From positions 509,045 to 573,044 of the forward strand of contig NZ_FKLA01000008.1 of the NCBI RefSeq assembly GCF_900078395.1: DNA of 64,000 nt. Reading direction: 5' to 3'. Both the position numbers and the translations under genes were made by a program. This stretch comes from Anaerotruncus rubiinfantis (GTDB taxonomy: Bacteria; Bacillota; Clostridia; Oscillospirales; Ruminococcaceae). Position 1 is the stretch's first letter. The number at the start of each line of letters is the position of its first letter. The notes below the pieces were generated by a model. That model did no database searches, was not told the DNA's origin, and worked only from the letters and a program-made list of their open reading frames with translations. This document shows, one piece after another, positions 50,945 through 60,237 of the stretch.

Positions 50945-51094
50945 ATCCATGTGTGCCCAGACATGCGGGTATGCGGGTCCTGTGCGACAGAGCGCCGTGA
51001 ACCATGTCAGGCGGGGAACCGAGCAGCATTAAGCGGTTTGTGATGTGCGCCGCAGGTAATCTGCATGTCCGCATTTGTGGGCACACATTTTTGT
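50945..51094 (+). ncRNA. ffs: Signal recognition particle RNA
   Basis: About 145 nt directly upstream of dnaX, a common SRP RNA location. The ends pair (GTGTGCCCAGACATGCGG with CCGCATTTGTGGGCACAC). The conserved Ffh-binding tip reads ACCATGTCAGGCGGGGAACC then GAGCAGCATTAAGC, with a GGAA tetraloop flanked by CGG/CCG. It lacks the long Alu-like extension of Bacillus scRNA. An open frame from 51004 through here is only an artefact of the dnaX frame. Confidence 0.9.
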
Positions 51095-51123
51095 GTCAAA
51101 AAACCGGAACGGAGGTGGGAGGA

Positions 51124-52719
51124 ATGTATCAGGCCCTTTACCGCAAATGGCGGCCGAAGGACTTTGAGGATGTGGTTGGACAGGATCATATCACCGTAAC
51201 CCTCAAAAATGAGGTGGCTTCGGGAAAATTCTCCCACGCCTATCTGTTCACCGGTTCGCGCGGCACCGGCAAAACCACCTGTTCGAAGATCATTGCCAAG
51301 GCGGTCAACTGCCTGCATCCGGTCGATGGAAACCCCTGCAACGAATGCGAGATCTGCCGCGGCATTGATGAGGGTTCGATCCTCGACGTGGTTGAAATCG
51401 ACGCGGCCAGCAACAACGGCGTTGACAACATCCGCCAGCTGCGCGAAGAGGCGTATTTCATGCCTTCGGTGGCAAAATACCGAGTGTACATCCTCGACGA
51501 GTGCCACATGCTTTCGGCCGGCGCGGTCAACGCCCTGCTGAAAATTTTGGAGGAACCGCCGGAGCATGTCATCTTCATCCTGGCGACCACCGAAATCCAC
51601 AAGGTGCTTCCGACCATCCTGTCCCGCTGCCAGCGGTTTGACTTTAAACGTATCAAATCCCGCACGATTGCCGACCGGCTTTTGTATGTGGCCGGGGAGG
51701 AGGGCTTTTTGCTCACGGACGACGCGGCGCTCCTGATCGCCCGCCTTTCGGACGGCGGCATGCGCGATGCGCTTTCGCTGCTCGACCTGTGCACCTCTTA
51801 CACCGGTGAGATCAACGTGCGGACGGTGACTGAAGCGGCCGGGCTTGCCGGGCAGGGGCATCTGTTCGATCTCGCTGCCGCCGCGATTGCGAAGGATCCC
51901 ACCGCCGCCTTGCGCACCGTCGAGGCGCTCAGCGAAAATTCGGTGGACTTCGCGCGGCTCACAGAGCAGCTTGTGGGGCATTTTCGCAACTTGATGCTTG
52001 TGAAAACGGTGAAGGAGCCGGAGGAGCTTGTGCAGGCGACGCCGGAGGATCTCGAACGCCTGCGTACGCAGGCGAAAGGGATCACCCTGCCGCAGGTGCT
52101 CATGGCGATCGACCTTCTGCAGGAGACGATGGGGAAAATTTCCCGTACCGCCTTTAAACGCACCGAATTTGAGATGGCGCTTATCCGCCTTTGCGATCAA
52201 CAGCTTGGAGGCGGCCTGGAGGGCGTACTCGACCGACTGGAGAAGCTCGAACGCGCGGTGCGCACAGGCGTGCGGCCCGCGGCGCCGGAGCAGCCGGAGG
52301 CGGCAGCGAAGCCCGCGCAGGCCGGCGAAACGGCGAATTTGTCCGGGCAGGCGGCAGCGCCAAGCGCGCCAAAACCGGGAACCTCCGAAGTGATGCCGTT
52401 TCCCGACTGGGCGAAGGTGCTTTCCGAGCTGCAGCCGCACAACGGCGCGCTCTACGGCGCGATGATCGATTCGCGGGCGTATACGAGCGGCGACCTGATG
52501 CTGATCGACTGCGCGAACGACATGTTCCGCCAGCTTTTACGCACCAGCATCGCGGCAAAGGAGAGCTTGCGTGACGCGATCCTCGCGGTCACCGGCCGCA
52601 AATACAATCTGGGACCCTATAATCCCCAAAAGCACACCGTCGCCCAGAAAACGGACGACCCGCTCGAGGGACTTTTGAAGAAGGCGAGCGAACTGAACGT
52701 TCCGCTCGAACTCAAGTAA
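51124..52719 (+). CDS. dnaX: DNA polymerase III gamma/tau subunit
   Basis: A 531-residue clamp-loader subunit: MYQALYRKWRPKDFEDVVGQ, Walker A GSRGTGKT near residue 45, four-cysteine zinc site (CNECEICRGI), DECHMLSAGAVNALLKILEEPP, and a sensor SRCQRFDF. An alanine/proline/glutamate-rich tau linker (about 370-430) precedes the C-terminal domain. GGAGG lies before the ATG. It is in an operon with ybaB and recR. Confidence 0.96.
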   Translation: MYQALYRKWRPKDFEDVVGQDHITVTLKNEVASGKFSHAYLFTGSRGTGKTTCSKIIAKAVNCLHPVDGNPCNECEICRGIDEGSILDVVEIDAASNNGVDNIRQLREEAYFMPSVAKYRVYILDECHMLSAGAVNALLKILEEPPEHVIFILATTEIHKVLPTILSRCQRFDFKRIKSRTIADRLLYVAGEEGFLLTDDAALLIARLSDGGMRDALSLLDLCTSYTGEINVRTVTEAAGLAGQGHLFDLAAAAIAKDPTAALRTVEALSENSVDFARLTEQLVGHFRNLMLVKTVKEPEELVQATPEDLERLRTQAKGITLPQVLMAIDLLQETMGKISRTAFKRTEFEMALIRLCDQQLGGGLEGVLDRLEKLERAVRTGVRPAAPEQPEAAAKPAQAGETANLSGQAAAPSAPKPGTSEVMPFPDWAKVLSELQPHNGALYGAMIDSRAYTSGDLMLIDCANDMFRQLLRTSIAAKESLRDAILAVTGRKYNLGPYNPQKHTVAQKTDDPLEGLLKKASELNVPLELK

Positions 52720-52743
52720 ACAATATTTGGAGGAATCATAAAG

Positions 52744-53094
52744 ATGAAAGCAAGGCTTCCGAAAGGCATGGGCGGCGGCGCCCCGAACAATATGAACGCA
52801 ATGATCCGTCAGGCGCAGAAGATCCAGGAGGATATGCGCAAGAAACAGGAAGAACTGGCAGAGATGGACTTCAAAACCACCGCTGGCGGCGGCATGGTGG
52901 AAGTGACCATCAGCGGCAAGAAAGAGCTCAAGGAGCTGATCCTCAAACCGGAAGTGGTCAATCCGGACGACATCGAGATGCTGCAGGACCTGATCATGGC
53001 TGCGGTCAACGAAGCGATCCGCACGGTGGAGGATACAACCAACGCCGAAATGGACAAAATCGCGGGCGGGCTGAACGTTCCGGGCGTGGTTTAA
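52744..53094 (+). CDS. ybaB: YbaB/EbfC nucleoid-associated protein
   Basis: A 116-residue YbaB family DNA-binding protein (MIRQAQKIQEDMRKKQEELAEM, GGGMVEVTISGKKELKEL, DLIMAAVNEAI). It lies between dnaX and recR, the conserved order. GGAGG lies ten bases before the ATG. Confidence 0.95.
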   Translation: MKARLPKGMGGGAPNNMNAMIRQAQKIQEDMRKKQEELAEMDFKTTAGGGMVEVTISGKKELKELILKPEVVNPDDIEMLQDLIMAAVNEAIRTVEDTTNAEMDKIAGGLNVPGVV

Positions 53095-53106
53095 CCTTTC
53101 AAAGAG

Positions 53107-53706
53107 ATGACATACAATGTAATACCGCTGACAAAACTGATCGAACAGTTTGAACGGCTGCCCGGCATTGGCCGCAAAAGTGCGCAGCGCCTGGCGTTTC
53201 ATGTCCTGTCGCTGCCGCGGGAGAAGGCGCAGGAATTTGCGGATGCGATTTTGGAAGCGCATGACAAGATTAAAAAATGCAAAATCTGTCAAAGCTTAAC
53301 CGAGAGCGAGGTCTGCCCGATCTGTTCGGATACGGCCCGTGACCGCGGCATCGTCTGTGTGGTGGAAAACTCCCAGGACGTGATCGCTTTTGAGCGCACC
53401 CGTGAATATCATGGGCTTTATCATGTGCTGCATGGGCTCATTTCCCCGATGGACGGGGTCGGGCCGGATCAGCTCTACATCAAGGAACTGCTTTCCCGCA
53501 TGGGGTCCGGCGAGATCGCCGAGGTGGTCATGGCCACCAATCCGACCGTCGAAGGCGAAGCCACCGCGATGTATATCGCGCGGCTTTTAAAACCGATGGG
53601 TGTGAAGGTGACCCGGCTTGCCTATGGCATTCCGGTGGGCGGGAATCTCGAATACGCGGATGAAGTGACCCTTTACCGTGCGCTCGAAGGCAGAAGCGAG
53701 ATATGA
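53107..53706 (+). CDS. recR: Recombination protein RecR
   Basis: A 199-residue RecR: HhH motif (LPGIGRKSAQRLAFHVL), C4 zinc finger (CKICQSLTESEVCPIC), and Toprim domain (CVVENSQDVIAFERT, ATNPTVEGEATAMYIARLL). It works with RecO in RecA loading. Confidence 0.97.
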   Translation: MTYNVIPLTKLIEQFERLPGIGRKSAQRLAFHVLSLPREKAQEFADAILEAHDKIKKCKICQSLTESEVCPICSDTARDRGIVCVVENSQDVIAFERTREYHGLYHVLHGLISPMDGVGPDQLYIKELLSRMGSGEIAEVVMATNPTVEGEATAMYIARLLKPMGVKVTRLAYGIPVGGNLEYADEVTLYRALEGRSEI

Positions 53707-53716
53707 GGGAATTTGG

Positions 53717-54115
53717 ATGTCAAAACTAGAAGGACGCGGCGCTGAAGAGCTCAAACGGATTGTCAAGTTCGGGATCACCGGCGTGGGGAACACGTTGGTG
53801 GATATGGCCGTCGGCGCGCTGCTTTTGTTTCTCGGCGTGAACGTCTACGCATCGAAATGCGTGGGCTACTGTGCCGGGATGCTCAACAGCTACCTGATCA
53901 ACCGGAAGTGGACCTTCCAGACGAAGGACCGGTTCTTCAGCCTGCAGATGGTGCGTTTTATCGCCACCAACCTGATCGTCCTGGCGGTTAGTATGGTGCT
54001 CATCAAGGTGTTCGTGGAATTTTTGGCACTGAGTGATCTTTGGGCAATGTTGATTTCCACCTGCTGCACGATGGCGCTCAATTTCATCATCAGCCGGCTG
54101 TGGGTATTCAAATGA
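53717..54115 (+). CDS. GtrA-family membrane protein
   Basis: A 132-residue protein with four hydrophobic helices of the GtrA family (FGITGVGNTLVDMAVGALL, GMLNSYLINRKWTF, NFIISRLWVF), implicated in flipping lipid-linked sugars or transport. GAGGG lies 8-10 bases before the ATG. It is co-directional and close to recR. Confidence 0.88.
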   Translation: MSKLEGRGAEELKRIVKFGITGVGNTLVDMAVGALLLFLGVNVYASKCVGYCAGMLNSYLINRKWTFQTKDRFFSLQMVRFIATNLIVLAVSMVLIKVFVEFLALSDLWAMLISTCCTMALNFIISRLWVFK

Positions 54116-54156
54116 CAAAACTGCGCATCCGCGCATGACAGAAGGAGGGGAGCCTA

Positions 54157-54624
54157 TTGGAACGCGCTTCCACCAAAACGATCACCTTAAACCGCAAGGC
54201 GCGGCATGAATATTTTGTGGAGGACAGCTTTGAAGCCGGGATCGAACTCTGCGGCACCGAAGTGAAGTCGTTGCGCAAAGGCTCCTGCAACTTGAAGGAC
54301 AGCTGGTGCGACATCGATCACGGGGAGCTTTACATCAAGCAGATGCACATTTCCCCCTATGAGCAGGGCAATATCTTCAACCGGGATCCTTACCGGCCGC
54401 GAAAACTCCTGATGCACCGGCGTGAGATCGCCAAACTTGCGGCGCTCGTGGCTCAGCAGGGTTATACGCTGATCCCTTTGTCTCTCTATTTCAAAGATTC
54501 CAAGGTGAAGGTGCAGCTGGGACTCTGCAAAGGCAAAAAACTGCACGACAAACGCGACGATATGGCACGTCGCGACGCGCAGCGTGACATTGACCGCGCT
54601 CTGCGCGATAGACAAAGAAATTAA
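54157..54624 (+). CDS. smpB: SsrA-binding protein SmpB
   Basis: A 155-residue SmpB: KTITLNRKARHEYFVED, GIELCGTEVKSLRKGSCNLKDSW, and the C-terminal basic tail (KLHDKRDDMARRDAQRDIDR). It recruits tmRNA to stalled ribosomes. The TTG at 54157 follows GGAGGGGAG. The tmRNA gene lies 44 bases downstream. Confidence 0.96.
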   Translation: MERASTKTITLNRKARHEYFVEDSFEAGIELCGTEVKSLRKGSCNLKDSWCDIDHGELYIKQMHISPYEQGNIFNRDPYRPRKLLMHRREIAKLAALVAQQGYTLIPLSLYFKDSKVKVQLGLCKGKKLHDKRDDMARRDAQRDIDRALRDRQRN

Positions 54625-54668: not shown

Positions 54669-55016
54669 GGGGTCGTAAAGGTTTCGACGGGGATTCTGAA
54701 GTATGAGTAGCGAGTAGAGGAGCATGACCTCTATAAAACATGACGTTTTTAAAGTAAACGACAACGATACTTTAGCTTTTGCGGCTTAATTAAGCCGTCG
54801 TCCTACCGCGGAGTACCACGGCCGCGGATAGGGCGTCGATTAGTGGTGAACGATCTTGCGGAGCGGCCTCGTACGCATGATTGTATCAGGGGATACCGAG
54901 CTGCGTAGCCTGTCGGCTGGCGACGCGGCAAGGGAATTTTAAAAAACCGACTGCACTCGGAGAAACTTATATGGACGGGTTTTCGGACAGGGGTTCGATT
55001 CCCCTCGGCTCCACCA
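54669..55016 (+). ncRNA. ssrA: Transfer-messenger RNA (ssrA)
   Basis: A 348-nt tmRNA with encoded CCA. The tRNA-like ends pair (GGGGTCG with CGGCTCC), with GGTTTCGACGG near the 5' end and the T-arm GGTTCGATTCCCC. The tag frame 54755-54787 encodes NDNDTLAFAA followed by TAA. The resume codon may be the preceding GTA or a one-codon-shifted alanine-like position. It is the integration target of the prophage: sequence after 55016 is element DNA. Confidence 0.95.
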
Positions 55017-56569
55017 CTTACATCCGAGTATCTTTCCGAACCTTCCCTTGCAGGAAGATCGGAAGGGTACTCGGAATTTTTATTGTGCAAAATAATATTT
55101 AGATTGATTGTCACGTCGGCAGAGTCGTCGTAACAAATTACCTTGTCCACAAATATTTCAATCGCTTCCCGCTGCGTAGAAGTTGGGAGTGTGGAAAGAT
55201 TTTGATATTTTTTGAGTGACGCAACGATATTCTCCAAAGGCATAATATCCCTGTTGGATTCATTTTCGCTTTTATGCAGTTCTTCCAAAAGCTCATTTTT
55301 TAGAGTTTCCAGTTCCACCAATCGCCCTTTAGTGGTTGTGGTAAATATGCCGCTTTCGATAGCCTGCATAATATTATCGATTTTAGCAGATACGTCGGTC
55401 AGTTTGCTTTTTAAGAATTTCTGACTATCTGAAATTTCGGCTTTCGATTTCTCCTGCGAATCAAAAAGTTTTTGCGCAACCTCCGGGAGTTTCTTTTCTG
55501 AAAACACTTCATTTTCTAAATATTCGATAACTGTAGACTCGACACGGTGGCTGGCAACAGCCCGCTTGTCGCAAGTGCGCTTTCTTTTTCTGGTAGCGCA
55601 GACATAAAAATAGTCGTAGCTACCTTTTTTATTTCTGGCGCTCTCTCCGACCATAGATCCGCCGCACTTCCCACAAACAACTTTTCCAGACAAAAGATAA
55701 TCATGCTTTGCCTTGCCCGCACCGGGCCGACCAACGTTCGTTCTTTTCTTGTTTTGCACTTTGTAAAAAAGATCAGTGTCAATGATAGCCGGTATTCCAC
55801 CTGGAATGCGAATAATTTCTTCGTCGGCTTTGTTTGCGTGGGTATTTCGCGGCCCCGATCGTCCATAGCTGGCAGAACGATTGTAAATAAAATTTCCTAT
55901 ATATTTTTCGTTCCTAAGAATATCAGATAAACTATTTTTACCAAAGCTTGTACCGCGTTTCGTTTTATATCCCAACGAATTTAAGCGATCAATAATTTTA
56001 GAATATCCCTCGCCGTTGGCGTACATTGTGAAAATGATCTTTACCGCCTCAGCTTCATGTTCGTTAACGATATAGGTATTATCGGATGCGAGGTCATAGC
56101 CAAGGGGAGGGGTTCCTCCTGTATGCTTGCATTGAAGGGCTGTTTCCCGCAAGCCTTTCATAGTTTCACGCGCGAGATTCTTTGAATAATATTCACTCAT
56201 TCCTTCGAGCACCGATTCCAAAATGATGCTTTCGGGGCTGTCGTCAAGATTTTCCAACACAGAGCACAGACGAATTCCGCAGCGCTTCAATTTTCTTTTA
56301 TAATAGGCGTGGTCGTATCTGTCCCGGCTGAACCTATCCAGCTTATGGATAATCACTGCCTCAAAAATGCTATCTTCTGCATCGTTCATCATCCGCAAGA
56401 ACTCGGGGCGCTTGTCGCTGGTCGCAGACTGCGCCTTATCCGCATATATTTTGATAACTTCAAGATCGTGCTTTTCTGCATAGTCTTGACAGGCTCTCAC
56501 CTGTGCGTCGATACTTTCATCCCTCTGGTTGTCCGAACTAAACCGGGCATAGATTACTGCCTTTTTCAT
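54803..56569 (-). CDS. Large serine recombinase (phage integrase), C-terminus fused into ssrA antisense
   Basis: 588 residues as integrated. The N-terminal resolvase domain has YARFSSDNQRDESIDAQ with the catalytic serine, and KLDRFSRDRYD. Next come the recombinase domain (ETMKGLRETALQ, PPLGYDL) and a zinc ribbon (CGKCGG...CDKRAV). A coiled coil lies at about 380-450. GGAGG lies five bases before the ATG. The last ~70 residues (from AEGNRTPVRKP onward) are encoded by the antisense of ssrA, so the natural C-terminus in the free phage must differ. It catalyses integration at ssrA and, with a directionality factor, excision. Confidence 0.93.
   Translation of the reverse strand: MKKAVIYARFSSDNQRDESIDAQVRACQDYAEKHDLEVIKIYADKAQSATSDKRPEFLRMMNDAEDSIFEAVIIHKLDRFSRDRYDHAYYKRKLKRCGIRLCSVLENLDDSPESIILESVLEGMSEYYSKNLARETMKGLRETALQCKHTGGTPPLGYDLASDNTYIVNEHEAEAVKIIFTMYANGEGYSKIIDRLNSLGYKTKRGTSFGKNSLSDILRNEKYIGNFIYNRSASYGRSGPRNTHANKADEEIIRIPGGIPAIIDTDLFYKVQNKKRTNVGRPGAGKAKHDYLLSGKVVCGKCGGSMVGESARNKKGSYDYFYVCATRKRKRTCDKRAVASHRVESTVIEYLENEVFSEKKLPEVAQKLFDSQEKSKAEISDSQKFLKSKLTDVSAKIDNIMQAIESGIFTTTTKGRLVELETLKNELLEELHKSENESNRDIMPLENIVASLKKYQNLSTLPTSTQREAIEIFVDKVICYDDSADVTINLNIILHNKNSEYPSDLPAREGSERYSDVSGGAEGNRTPVRKPVHISFSECSRFFKIPLPRRQPTGYAARYPLIQSCVRGRSARSFTTNRRPIRGRGTPR
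54992..55016. other. Prophage attachment site (attL, within the ssrA 3' end)
   Basis: The tmRNA gene remains intact up to CCA, and phage-type sequence and a recombinase begin immediately after. The crossover therefore lies in or next to the T-arm/acceptor segment. The matching attR is beyond the window, so the core length is unknown. Confidence 0.6.
55024..55082. terminator. Imperfect long hairpin behind ssrA
   Basis: CCGAGTATCTTTCCGAACC pairs imperfectly with a copy of its complement ending GGTACTCGG and is followed by AATTTTTATT. It can terminate ssrA rightward, yet lies inside the recombinase frame. Confidence 0.6.
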
Positions 56570-56694
56570 AATACCCTCCAAAATTTTCAGAACGATTACT
56601 ATATCTGTTAAATGCTAAACCTGATTCAGCACAATGTCTTGTGTCAATCCCTAAATCCACCAATATTATTTGCCATTATCGTGTAAAACTTCCA

Positions 56695-56724
56695 TTGACG
56701 AATAACAACTGTTAGTAGTAAAAT
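56695..56724 (+). promoter_or_regulatory. Promoter upstream of the CRISPR-repeat ORF
   Basis: TTGACG, an 18-bp spacer and TAAAAT. The region upstream (56570-56690) is AT-rich and holds nothing else recognised. Confidence 0.65.
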
Positions 56725-56735
56725 CAAATCATAAA

Positions 56736-56749
56736 AGAACATACGTTCT
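56736..56749. promoter_or_regulatory. LexA (SOS) box
   Basis: AGAACATACGTTCT matches the Gram-positive LexA consensus GAAC-N4-GTTC. It lies just downstream of the promoter's predicted start, where LexA would block transcription. Confidence 0.7.
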
Positions 56750-56774
56750 ACATTTCAAAGAAAGGATTGACGAC

Positions 56775-57056
56775 ATGAGCAAACAGAGCTATAAAGACAT
56801 CCAAAGTGATGCGCCTGCACGCCATATTTCTATCCACGCGCCCCGTGGAGAGAGGCGCGACACGTACCGCGATGCTGATAACTTAATGCCCTTGACCGAC
56901 ACAGAACGAGAATGGCTTATTGCGGTTGGCAGGGCACAACATAAACGGCATTCAGACGTTACTTATCTTTTGGCGGTTCTGGAGGAATATCTAGAGCTTT
57001 CAGAAGATTCAGAGCTCGTTTTTGATCTTCCGGAGAATGACTGCGGAACCAAATAA
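56775..57056 (+). CDS. Small prophage ORF containing a CRISPR-repeat-like segment
   Basis: 93 residues. AAAGGA lies eight bases before the ATG, so translation is likely. Residues 18-29 (ISIHAPRGERRD) are exactly the translation of a 36-bp type I-C-like CRISPR repeat on the opposite strand. The remainder (LTDTEREWLIAVGRAQ onward, acidic C-terminus) matches nothing I recognise. Its 3' end overlaps the convergent repressor gene by 98 bases. LexA-controlled expression is inferred from the box upstream. Confidence 0.55.
   Translation: MSKQSYKDIQSDAPARHISIHAPRGERRDTYRDADNLMPLTDTEREWLIAVGRAQHKRHSDVTYLLAVLEEYLELSEDSELVFDLPENDCGTK
56826..56861 (-). repeat. Solitary type I-C-like CRISPR repeat
   Basis: On the minus strand 36 bases begin GTCGCGCC and end GGGCGCGTGGATAGAAAT. 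The CGCGCC/GGCGCG stem and the GTGGAT(T/A)GAAAT 3' handle follow the type I-C repeat layout. The loop is about three bases longer than usual. There is only one copy, with no spacer or second repeat within several hundred bases, so it is not an array. Confidence 0.65.
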
Positions 57057-57315
57057 GAGCTTCACGCATTTCAGGATTCTTCAAAAGCTCGTCGTCCTCT
57101 GTGGCGGCGGGCTTGTTTTTTATGTCTGTATTGCCCAGGAGATAATCGGTCGACACGCCGAAGTATGCTGCTATCTTTTGGACAGTATCAGATTTAGGAA
57201 CCTTCCCTATCCGCCAATTTGTTACATTGGATTTGCTTATTCCTAGATCCATAACCAGCTTCGTTGGGGTAATGCCAGCATCAGAACATAATGAACTGAG
57301 AATATCAAAAAACAT
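56959..57315 (-). CDS. XRE-family phage repressor (CI-like)
   Basis: A 118-residue protein with an N-terminal HTH (ITPTKLVMDLGISKSNVTNW across residues 15-34), then VPKSDTVQKIAAYFGVSTDYLLGNTD and a helical C-terminal tail. GGAGG lies seven bases before the ATG. It lies left of, and reads away from, an operator-bearing rightward promoter. It is the likely lysogeny repressor. No RecA-cleavable peptidase domain is seen, so induction must act in another way. Confidence 0.9.
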   Translation of the reverse strand: MFFDILSSLCSDAGITPTKLVMDLGISKSNVTNWRIGKVPKSDTVQKIAAYFGVSTDYLLGNTDIKNKPAATEDDELLKNPEMREALIWFRSHSPEDQKRALNLLKALDIPPEPPKDK

Positions 57316-57330
57316 GGGCGAACCTCCATA

Positions 57331-57359
57331 TTGACGAGTTCGATTTAGAGAACTATAAT
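57331..57359 (+). promoter_or_regulatory. Rightward promoter with operator in the spacer (site 1)
   Basis: TTGACG, spacer AGTTCGATTTAGAGAAC (exactly 17 bp), then TATAAT. The operator (AGTTCGATTTAGAGAACT, 57337-57354) fills the spacer. Nearly the same 29 bp recurs at 59669. Confidence 0.85.
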
Positions 57360-57405
57360 ATAATTAACAACACACAATTCATCCACGCGGAAAGGAGTTT
57401 GGAAT

Positions 57406-57651
57406 ATGGACAACAGAAAAGGGCGCTGCCCTGATTGCGCCAACTGCCCCAGCAATGATACATGTCGCCCCTCCGAAGAGGATCGTAAGAGACTGCAACA
57501 GTTATTTGATCAAGAAGAACAAGAGCCAGAAGAACAAAAACCCAAACTATCGTTCCCCGAGAAACATCCTGATTTCCCACTTTACCTTGCGCTGATAGCG
57601 TTAATAGCTTCTATTGCTGACCCTATTTTCAGGGCCCTAATAGGCTACTGA
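57406..57651 (+). CDS. Small cysteine-rich membrane protein
   Basis: An 81-residue protein with a CPDCANCPSNDTC cysteine cluster (residues 8-20, possible zinc site), an acidic Q/E-rich middle, and one C-terminal hydrophobic helix (YLALIALIASIADPIFRALIG). A GGAG-type SD lies before the ATG. It is the first gene of the operator-controlled rightward promoter. Function unknown. Confidence 0.7.
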   Translation: MDNRKGRCPDCANCPSNDTCRPSEEDRKRLQQLFDQEEQEPEEQKPKLSFPEKHPDFPLYLALIALIASIADPIFRALIGY

Positions 57652-59668: not shown

Positions 59669-59697
59669 TTGACTGGTTCGATTTGGAGAACTATAAT
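59669..59697 (+). promoter_or_regulatory. Second rightward promoter with operator in the spacer (site 2)
   Basis: TTGACT, spacer GGTTCGATTTGGAGAAC (17 bp), then TATAAT: the same architecture as at 57331. It drives the early gene region. Downstream, 59700-60048 is a long leader with an 11-bp inverted repeat (TTTTCTCACAA...TTGTGAGAAAA near 59813-59860) and no convincing gene. Confidence 0.85.
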
Positions 59698-60048
59698 ATA
59701 ACTAAGCTATTAAACCCCACAAAAAACCAAGCCCCTCACTGGAGCGGTTATTCAGTTGGTTGGCACTTACAGAATAACATGTTTTTCGCGGTCGTTCAAT
59801 AGCTTTTCTCACAAAAATAAAAGCAACATTTGCGCAGATTGTGAGAAAACCCGTTTACGCTGCAATAAAGCTGCCGCAAAGGCACGATCTCACGGGCCAA
59901 GTGTTTTCGTCTGCTTCGCGGGCGTGGTTAACCCGCTTATGCGTCAACAAGATTTTAAATGACGTGCGGATACCGTGTGGTGCGCGGTATGTCTTTACGG
60001 CAACTTTATTGCAGCGTGGGCGATGACAACAAAAAGGAGGTGTTTACC

Positions 60049-60237
60049 ATCGTATCAGATTACTTTCTGGCTGAAATTGACCGTCAAAAGCGGCTGCAAA
60101 AATTGACCTATCGCGATATCGCGAAAAAAGCCGGAATCAATTATGGCACAATGCGCAAGTTCATGTGCGGCACATACAACGGCGATAACGAGCGAATCGC
60201 GGATCTGATCGCAGCCGTCCTAAAGATTGAGAGGTGA
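60049..60237 (+). CDS. Small HTH (Cro-like) regulator with apparent ATC start
   Basis: 62 residues: VSDYFLAEIDRQKRLQKL then YRDIAKKAGINYGTMRKFMCG, an HTH. A perfect AAAAAGGAGG (60031-60040) is followed after eight bases by ATC, with no ATG/GTG/TTG at that distance in frame. ATG codons at 59959 and 59989 are in frame but lack an SD. It is first of the early operon. Confidence 0.6.
   Translation: MVSDYFLAEIDRQKRLQKLTYRDIAKKAGINYGTMRKFMCGTYNGDNERIADLIAAVLKIER

Follow-up and report, generated by a model that had tools for sequence, protein, structure and literature searches.

A solitary type I-C-like CRISPR repeat inside a small prophage gene as a putative RNA anti-CRISPR

Can an RNA anti-CRISPR be carried opposite the coding strand of a prophage gene? 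The question is raised by a 36-nt element in the window (the whole stretch of 64,000 nucleotides that was analysed), which reads on the minus strand as a solitary type I-C-like CRISPR repeat (56826..56861) and on the plus strand as part of a short ORF. The first-pass annotation had proposed such a role, noting that solitary phage repeats can act as RNA anti-CRISPRs. The available text of PMC10651486 bears this out: RNA anti-CRISPRs of this kind (Racrs), one of type I-C (RacrIC1) included, are established there, and 2,103 candidate solitary repeats are reported on viral sequences.

A single repeat near the left junction of a prophage

The window ends within a prophage located at the host tmRNA gene (54669..55016, plus strand). 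The 11 genomes of the nearest genus all match the window across the tmRNA (G796 in two pieces), and in all of them the similarity ends at 55014-55017; the tmRNA thus marks the left prophage junction. The next gene leftward of the repeat encodes a large serine recombinase (integrase; 54803..56581, minus strand), and to its right lies a phage HTH repressor (phrog_8, HTH_19; 56959..57315, minus strand), beyond which the rightward phage genes include Erf-like and NinB-like proteins. The serine integrase, the repressor, the tmRNA junction and the NinB-like and Erf-like genes together place the repeat on a mobile element. A phage repressor in IMG/VR (L010, 3974-4321) has the segment LLGNTDIKNKP that is also present in the window repressor, and the 523-aa ORF downstream of it resembles, by eye, a serine recombinase.

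Two further pairs of repeats were seen in this region. A 37-bp direct repeat (57331-57367 and 59669-59705) is 89% identical between its copies, both of which contain GTTCGATTT-GAGAAC, and the first of which contains a promoter-like TTGACG-17-TATAAT; from their sequence, these may be paired repressor operators with early promoters. An inverted repeat of 28 nt (59857-59884 and 59990-60017, 89% complementary, 105 nt apart) has its second arm inside a small ORF (59959-60237).

Read in the repeat sense, the minus-strand sequence of the element is GTCGCGCCTCTCTCCACGGGGCGCGTGGATAGAAAT. It opens with GTCGC, forms an 8-bp stem (5' arm CGCGCCTC, 56852..56859; 3' arm GGGGCGCG, 56837..56844; both on the minus strand) around a loop at 56845-56851, and carries GCGTGGATAGAAAT, which includes the equivalent of a crRNA 5' handle (TGGATAGAAAT, 56826..56836, minus strand). 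This minus-strand handle, UGGAUAGAAAU, is 11 nt long, the length of the handle that Cas5d leaves on type I-C crRNA according to the available text of PMC5965380. A stem closed by C-G pairs comes directly after GT, the 11-nt handle that succeeds it ends in GAAAT, and in both sequence and shape the element is very like a type I-C repeat. The stem first annotated here, CGCGCC/GGCGCG, is present, but the full stem comprises 8 bp, adding one G-U and one further C-G pair. The loop had rightly been described as long, at 7 nt versus 4-5 nt in four folded repeats of the nearest genus.

The minus-strand RNA of the element folds into the 8-bp stem and 7-nt loop at -14.6 kcal/mol, and 9 of 200 shuffled sequences were equally stable; the plus-strand fold is weaker (-12.0 kcal/mol; 12/200 shuffles). 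Within a 116-nt context neither strand has the repeat hairpin as its minimum-energy fold; in the longer RNA another fold competes with it. A chance match was ruled out: the 36-mer is the sole match in the window at up to 3 mismatches, none of 100 shuffles gave any match, and base composition alone predicts about 2e-5 occurrences of the degenerate type I-C motif GTCGC-N8-24-GCGTGGATWGAAAT per window, the stem not being required. No second repeat, full or partial, was found within 100 bp on either side, where the best 18-mer matches (9/18 and 10/18) compare with an average of 10.7 for shuffled flanks. An array or mini-array remnant is thereby ruled out within that distance, and the description of the element as a single type I-C-like copy with no second repeat nearby holds.

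The surrounding ORF and its mosaic family

The element occupies, as claimed, 12 in-frame codons (18-29, encoding ISIHAPRGERRD) of a 93-aa ORF (56775..57056, plus strand) that starts between the integrase and the repressor and overlaps the repressor gene at its 3' end. Upstream lies a sigma-70-like promoter found by a promoter scan (TTGACG-18-TAAAAT, 10/12; 56695..56724, plus strand), followed by a ribosome-binding site that we recognized by reading of the sequence (gaaagga, 56760..56766, plus strand) ahead of the ATG at 56775. A terminator-like hairpin of 12 pairs with a T-run follows 28 bp past the ORF stop (57085..57114, plus strand), antisense within the repressor gene. The C-terminal domain is conserved between two homologue types (40-42% identity, 20 invariant columns), and this conservation, together with the ORF's own promoter-like site, ribosome-binding site and terminator-like hairpin, ruled out a spurious ORF. 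In a structure predicted from a six-sequence alignment (whole-model mean pLDDT 63), the C-terminal part is modelled as a helical hairpin (helices 42-54 and 59-75; blocks 41-70 with pLDDT 88-90), and the N-terminal 30 residues, repeat included, are modelled at low confidence (blocks 1-30, pLDDT 46-48).

At least six other members of the family (P0001-P0006) were recovered from a set of 5.8 billion proteins, by a search that requires shared words and may thus miss distant relatives. All members begin with a constant 17-aa start, MSKQSYKDIQSDA-ARH, after which two kinds of cassette are found. The repeat-encoded cassette is present in the window ORF, P0001, P0002 and P0004; P0003, P0005 and P0006 carry, after a few variable residues, the longer cassette HxPVENIGNxGYNENAGIMGGQRPVxGGATCTD. 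Back-translation of the tail of the long cassette permits a half hairpin like GTCGCGCC...GGGGCGC, but the handle is gone; these three members thus retain the ORF and lose the handle. Five of the six possible combinations of two cassette kinds with three C-termini were seen. The first 34 residues, repeat included, are identical ahead of two different C-terminal domains (window and P0001 versus P0004), and since each cassette occurs with both related C-termini, the cassettes appear to recombine with the rest of the gene. The source name of P0006 is Anaerotruncus rubiinfantis (Oscillospiraceae in the NCBI taxonomy).

The padloc and phrogs profiles assigned no family to the window ORF, P0003 or P0004. 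Tad3 is an inhibitor of type I Thoeris. Residues 35-62 of the ORF (56877-56960) gave a Pfam match to this family at 14.5 bits, below the cut-off of 27, and the identity was not used. No relatives of the ORF were confirmed in viral_contigs (queries: window ORF and C-terminal alignment), where one match to P0004 (L011) was dropped as it sits in a 796-aa ORF of another phage. None were found in phage records or, with P0006 as query, in plasmid records. No relative reached E <= 0.001 in genomes of the order (394 searched), the family (396) or the genus (11), one of these searches listing two weak matches (E 0.49 and 0.63); these empty searches carry little weight, having no positive control.

Candidate roles of the repeat

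Kinship to the host was judged from the DNA of 51004-54624, from dnaX to the gene preceding the tmRNA, and the nearest genomes among those searched were 11 of one genus (70-79% identity in matched pieces). Sampling of 394 genomes from the order of Butyricicoccus faecihominis, and of 197 from one family within it, led to this genus, such that a nearer one may exist. Cas8c/Csd1 scored above the curated cut-off in 5 of the 11 genomes. Four of these (G687, G728, G796 and G491) have arrays with GTGGATTGAAAT-type repeats, mostly of 32-33 nt, whose stem measures 7-8 bp and whose GTCGC...GCGTGGATWGAAAT frame is that of the element; the fifth (G801) has a single GTGGATTGAAAT-type repeat near the end of an 11-kb contig. 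In G687 (C1 and C2), two separate Cas8c genes were each seen near a long GTGGATTGAAAT array. The GGATAGAAAT variant that the element has is present in the arrays of 4 of the 197 genomes of the family sample. The best identity of the element to the array repeats of the nearest genus is 83% with gaps (G728 and G491). With Cas8c in 5 of 11 nearest-genus genomes, a type I-C target for the element in its host, as the first-pass annotation had suggested, is plausible; among the motif matches compared, no array repeat is identical to the element (86% at best).

Either strand could in principle supply the active RNA, and one homologue, P0002, bears on the choice. It differs from the window ORF at 6 of 12 repeat residues versus 6 of 81 elsewhere (Fisher p = 0.0008), and the changes inside the repeat fall on 6 of the 8 stem-loop residues and on none of the 4 handle residues. 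The comparison of synonymous sites was replaced by constraints drawn from homologue protein sequences, and the stem test is accordingly a back-translation of a single protein with few sites, to which synonymous handle changes are invisible. On the minus strand, four of the eight stem pairs could be checked and all of them pair for any codons (3-25, T-A or T.G; 4-24, A-T or G.T; 5-23, T.G; 8-20, C-G), the first three including changed bases; pairs 6-22, 7-21, 9-19 and 10-18 are not fixed by back-translation. The plus strand, by contrast, can have only an A.C mismatch at pair 5-23. A minus-strand hairpin whose handle is fixed should give such a pattern, as far as one homologue and few sites can indicate. 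Protein databases show homologues with an intact ORF only, so decayed alleles would be invisible. The exact 36-mer was not found in viral_contigs, and neither was a GTTGTG...GTGTGGATWGAAAT repeat (one reading of P0002), which suggests that P0002 may represent drift rather than the repeat of another host.

The minus strand is also the coding strand of the repressor and integrase. The repeat starts 97 bp past the repressor stop, and a leftward transcript of the repressor would enter it in the repeat sense. A scan of 56500-57500 gave no minus-strand sigma-70-like promoter between the repressor start and the repeat; the only minus-strand promoter-like site there is at 56611, left of the repeat and just before the integrase. 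The scan gave no minus-strand terminator-like site between the repressor and the repeat, or between the repressor and the integrase. Given the 97-bp distance and the lack of a terminator-like site between them, repressor read-through would be the likeliest source of crRNA-sense RNA.

We therefore consider it credible, though still short of probable, that the element is a phage-borne solitary mimic of a type I-C repeat that works like an RNA anti-CRISPR. Leftward transcription of the repressor would continue past its stop codon and carry the repeat in the crRNA sense; the Cas5d of the host would bind or cut the hairpin; and the resulting RNA would tie up Cas proteins in dead complexes, which may protect the prophage of the lysogen or an incoming phage. 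The opposite strand would meanwhile encode an apparently flexible N-terminal tail of a small phage protein, tolerant of the repeat. As the promoter of the ORF would yield the repeat in antisense, the two strands may regulate each other. Several observations count against such a decoy: the strong promoter-like site drives the antisense strand of the repeat, no minus-strand promoter-like site lies near the repeat, long-cassette alleles lack the handle, the hairpin is not the minimum-energy fold in its 116-nt context, the loop exceeds that of the 33-nt genus repeats by 3 nt, and identity to the repeats compared is 86% at best.

A rival reading is a captured passenger: a stray type I-C repeat would have recombined into a mosaic phage gene, at its flexible N-terminal tail, and have been kept only as in-frame and harmless. 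The family is indeed mosaic, its constant 17-aa start being joined to two kinds of cassette and three C-termini; the handle is missing from the long cassettes; the repeat lies in a tail modelled at low confidence; no minus-strand promoter-like site is near; and the rapid protein change within the repeat is consistent with relaxed constraint. We regard capture as a real possibility. However, P0002 has kept the handle unchanged and the four checkable minus-strand pairs intact while 6 of 8 stem-loop residues changed, a pattern that simple decay does not predict, though it comes from few sites in one homologue. We thus favour a Racr-like decoy made by repressor read-through over a captured passenger repeat.

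The plus strand has promoter-like, ribosome-binding and terminator-like signals, and the ORF mRNA is thus the RNA most surely made. This mRNA carries the complement of the repeat and might pair with the repeats or handles of host pre-crRNA and block maturation, with which the unchanged handle residues of P0002 would also fit. Yet a gapped identity of at most 83% to the genus repeats makes a poor antisense match (the host's own repeat may differ), P0002 keeps minus-strand G-U pairing that antisense action does not need, and no precedent was seen in the literature among the matches listed, such that we hold antisense action to be improbable. The first-pass annotation had allowed for action either as RNA or as antisense to crRNA handles; the strand-specific comparison favours the former, the crRNA-like minus strand, over an antisense reading of the ORF mRNA. 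The chances are slimmer still that the repeat is a processing site within a repressor-integrase transcript, trimmed in a type I-C host so that lysogeny control senses immunity. Cas5d cuts type I-C repeats (available text of PMC5965380), and the repeat lies between the leftward repressor and integrase genes, where the scan gave no terminator-like site on the minus strand; against this, a minus-strand promoter-like site stands directly ahead of the integrase. Just as slight is the prospect that the peptide ISIHAPRGERRD itself is functional in the protein: it is read in frame, and P0001 and P0004 have it unchanged, but 6 of its 12 residues differ in P0002, other homologues have a different cassette, and its position in a tail modelled at a pLDDT of about 47 makes a peptide role less likely.

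Comparison with known repeats and RNA anti-CRISPRs

Measured against 98 distinct motif matches, the element is closest to a repeat on a viral contig (L072) and to the array repeat of genome G453 (L092), each at 86% identity with gaps. The search for relatives of the ORF gave one match in genome_contigs (L001); it comes from Butyricicoccus faecihominis, consists of a type I-C-like array and matches through the repeat. The element shares with the type I-C repeats of the nearest genus (G687, G728, G796 and G491) the GTCGC start, a 7-8 bp stem and the GCGTGGATTGAAAT end, whereas those repeats are mostly 32-33 nt long, are arrayed, have T in the handle where the element has A, and have loops of 4-5 nt. 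The length of 32-33 nt also prevails among the 98 motif matches (72 of them), and the three additional bases of the 36-nt element relative to the 33-nt genus repeats are in the loop.

Phage CRISPR mini-arrays, such as L046 and L073 in IMG/VR, likewise place type I-C-like repeats on viral contigs, but consist of two repeats and a spacer where the window has one repeat. Pairs of type I-C-like repeats one spacer apart were seen on the viral contigs L046, L073 and L076, in the last at the extreme contig end. Across IMG/VR, 66 stretches had a similar motif, 30 of which were dropped for further matches or degenerate copies within 400 bp. Of the 36 that looked solitary, 26 had a stem of at least 6 bp, and 19 of these 26 lay in a mechanically called ORF of at least 60 aa. 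Three cases are identical in sequence (L055, L058 and L075). In the 17 cases viewed, which cover the set, most ORFs look spurious by eye, so these stretches ground no claim of an intragenic class. On the IMG/VR contig L065, a solitary type I-C-like repeat (455-484) overlaps a 147-aa ORF at its 3' end, the two reading in one direction.

As described in the available text of PMC10651486, SRUFinder requires solitary repeat units (SRUs) to match a known CRISPR repeat with an identity of 90% or more and a score of 41.1 bits or more, using a library of 17,823 repeats, and the search masked confident predicted ORFs, intragenic matches being deemed probable false positives. Our element has no full or partial copy within 100 bp by our own 18-mer test; among the 98 motif matches compared it reaches 86% identity and 36.2 bits (the best blastn-short score at the site), and it lies within an ORF with a conserved C-terminal domain rather than between genes. 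We therefore call it Racr-like in its putative working and do not file it as an SRU. An element of this kind would be missed by a search that masks ORFs.

A wider proposal, which we regard as possible but doubtful, is that this DNA has a dual use, with the plus strand encoding a flexible protein tail, the minus strand giving a type I-C RNA anti-CRISPR in the 3' part of the repressor mRNA, the repeat being a swappable mosaic cassette, and intragenic Racrs forming a class that the published search missed. With the repeat as a swappable cassette of a mosaic family, phages could change the decoy and keep the protein. If true, real genes can conceal RNA anti-CRISPRs on their non-coding strand, and published counts made with ORFs masked are too low; Clostridia of the Anaerotruncus-Butyricicoccus neighbourhood would have a type I-C decoy, and a single DNA segment would, in nature, be under selection for a protein on one strand and for an RNA decoy on the other. 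If false, the locus offers a clean case of the capture of a CRISPR repeat by a coding gene.

The closest precedents are those set out in the available text of PMC10651486. There, RacrIF1 draws Cas6f and Cas7f into dead complexes, and RacrIC1 is a working type I-C decoy from a prophage of Bifidobacterium pseudocatenulatum, where it shares a transcript with an acrIC5 homologue and lies 11 nt downstream of it; RacrIC1 was tested there with PAO1::IC and phage JBD30. Near our element, no anti-CRISPR family was found among the scanned ORFs, which are some of the neighbouring ones. An intragenic or antisense Racr was not reported in the titles and abstract openings of the matches listed. The element has in common with RacrIC1 that it is a single type I-C-like prophage repeat with no spacer, a hairpin and a handle, and the corresponding CRISPR subtype is frequent in the nearest host genus. 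Unlike the Racrs described there, it lies inside a coding ORF, on the antisense strand. Solitary-repeat RNA anti-CRISPRs are thus already known, and the intragenic antisense placement is the new aspect relative to those described in that text.
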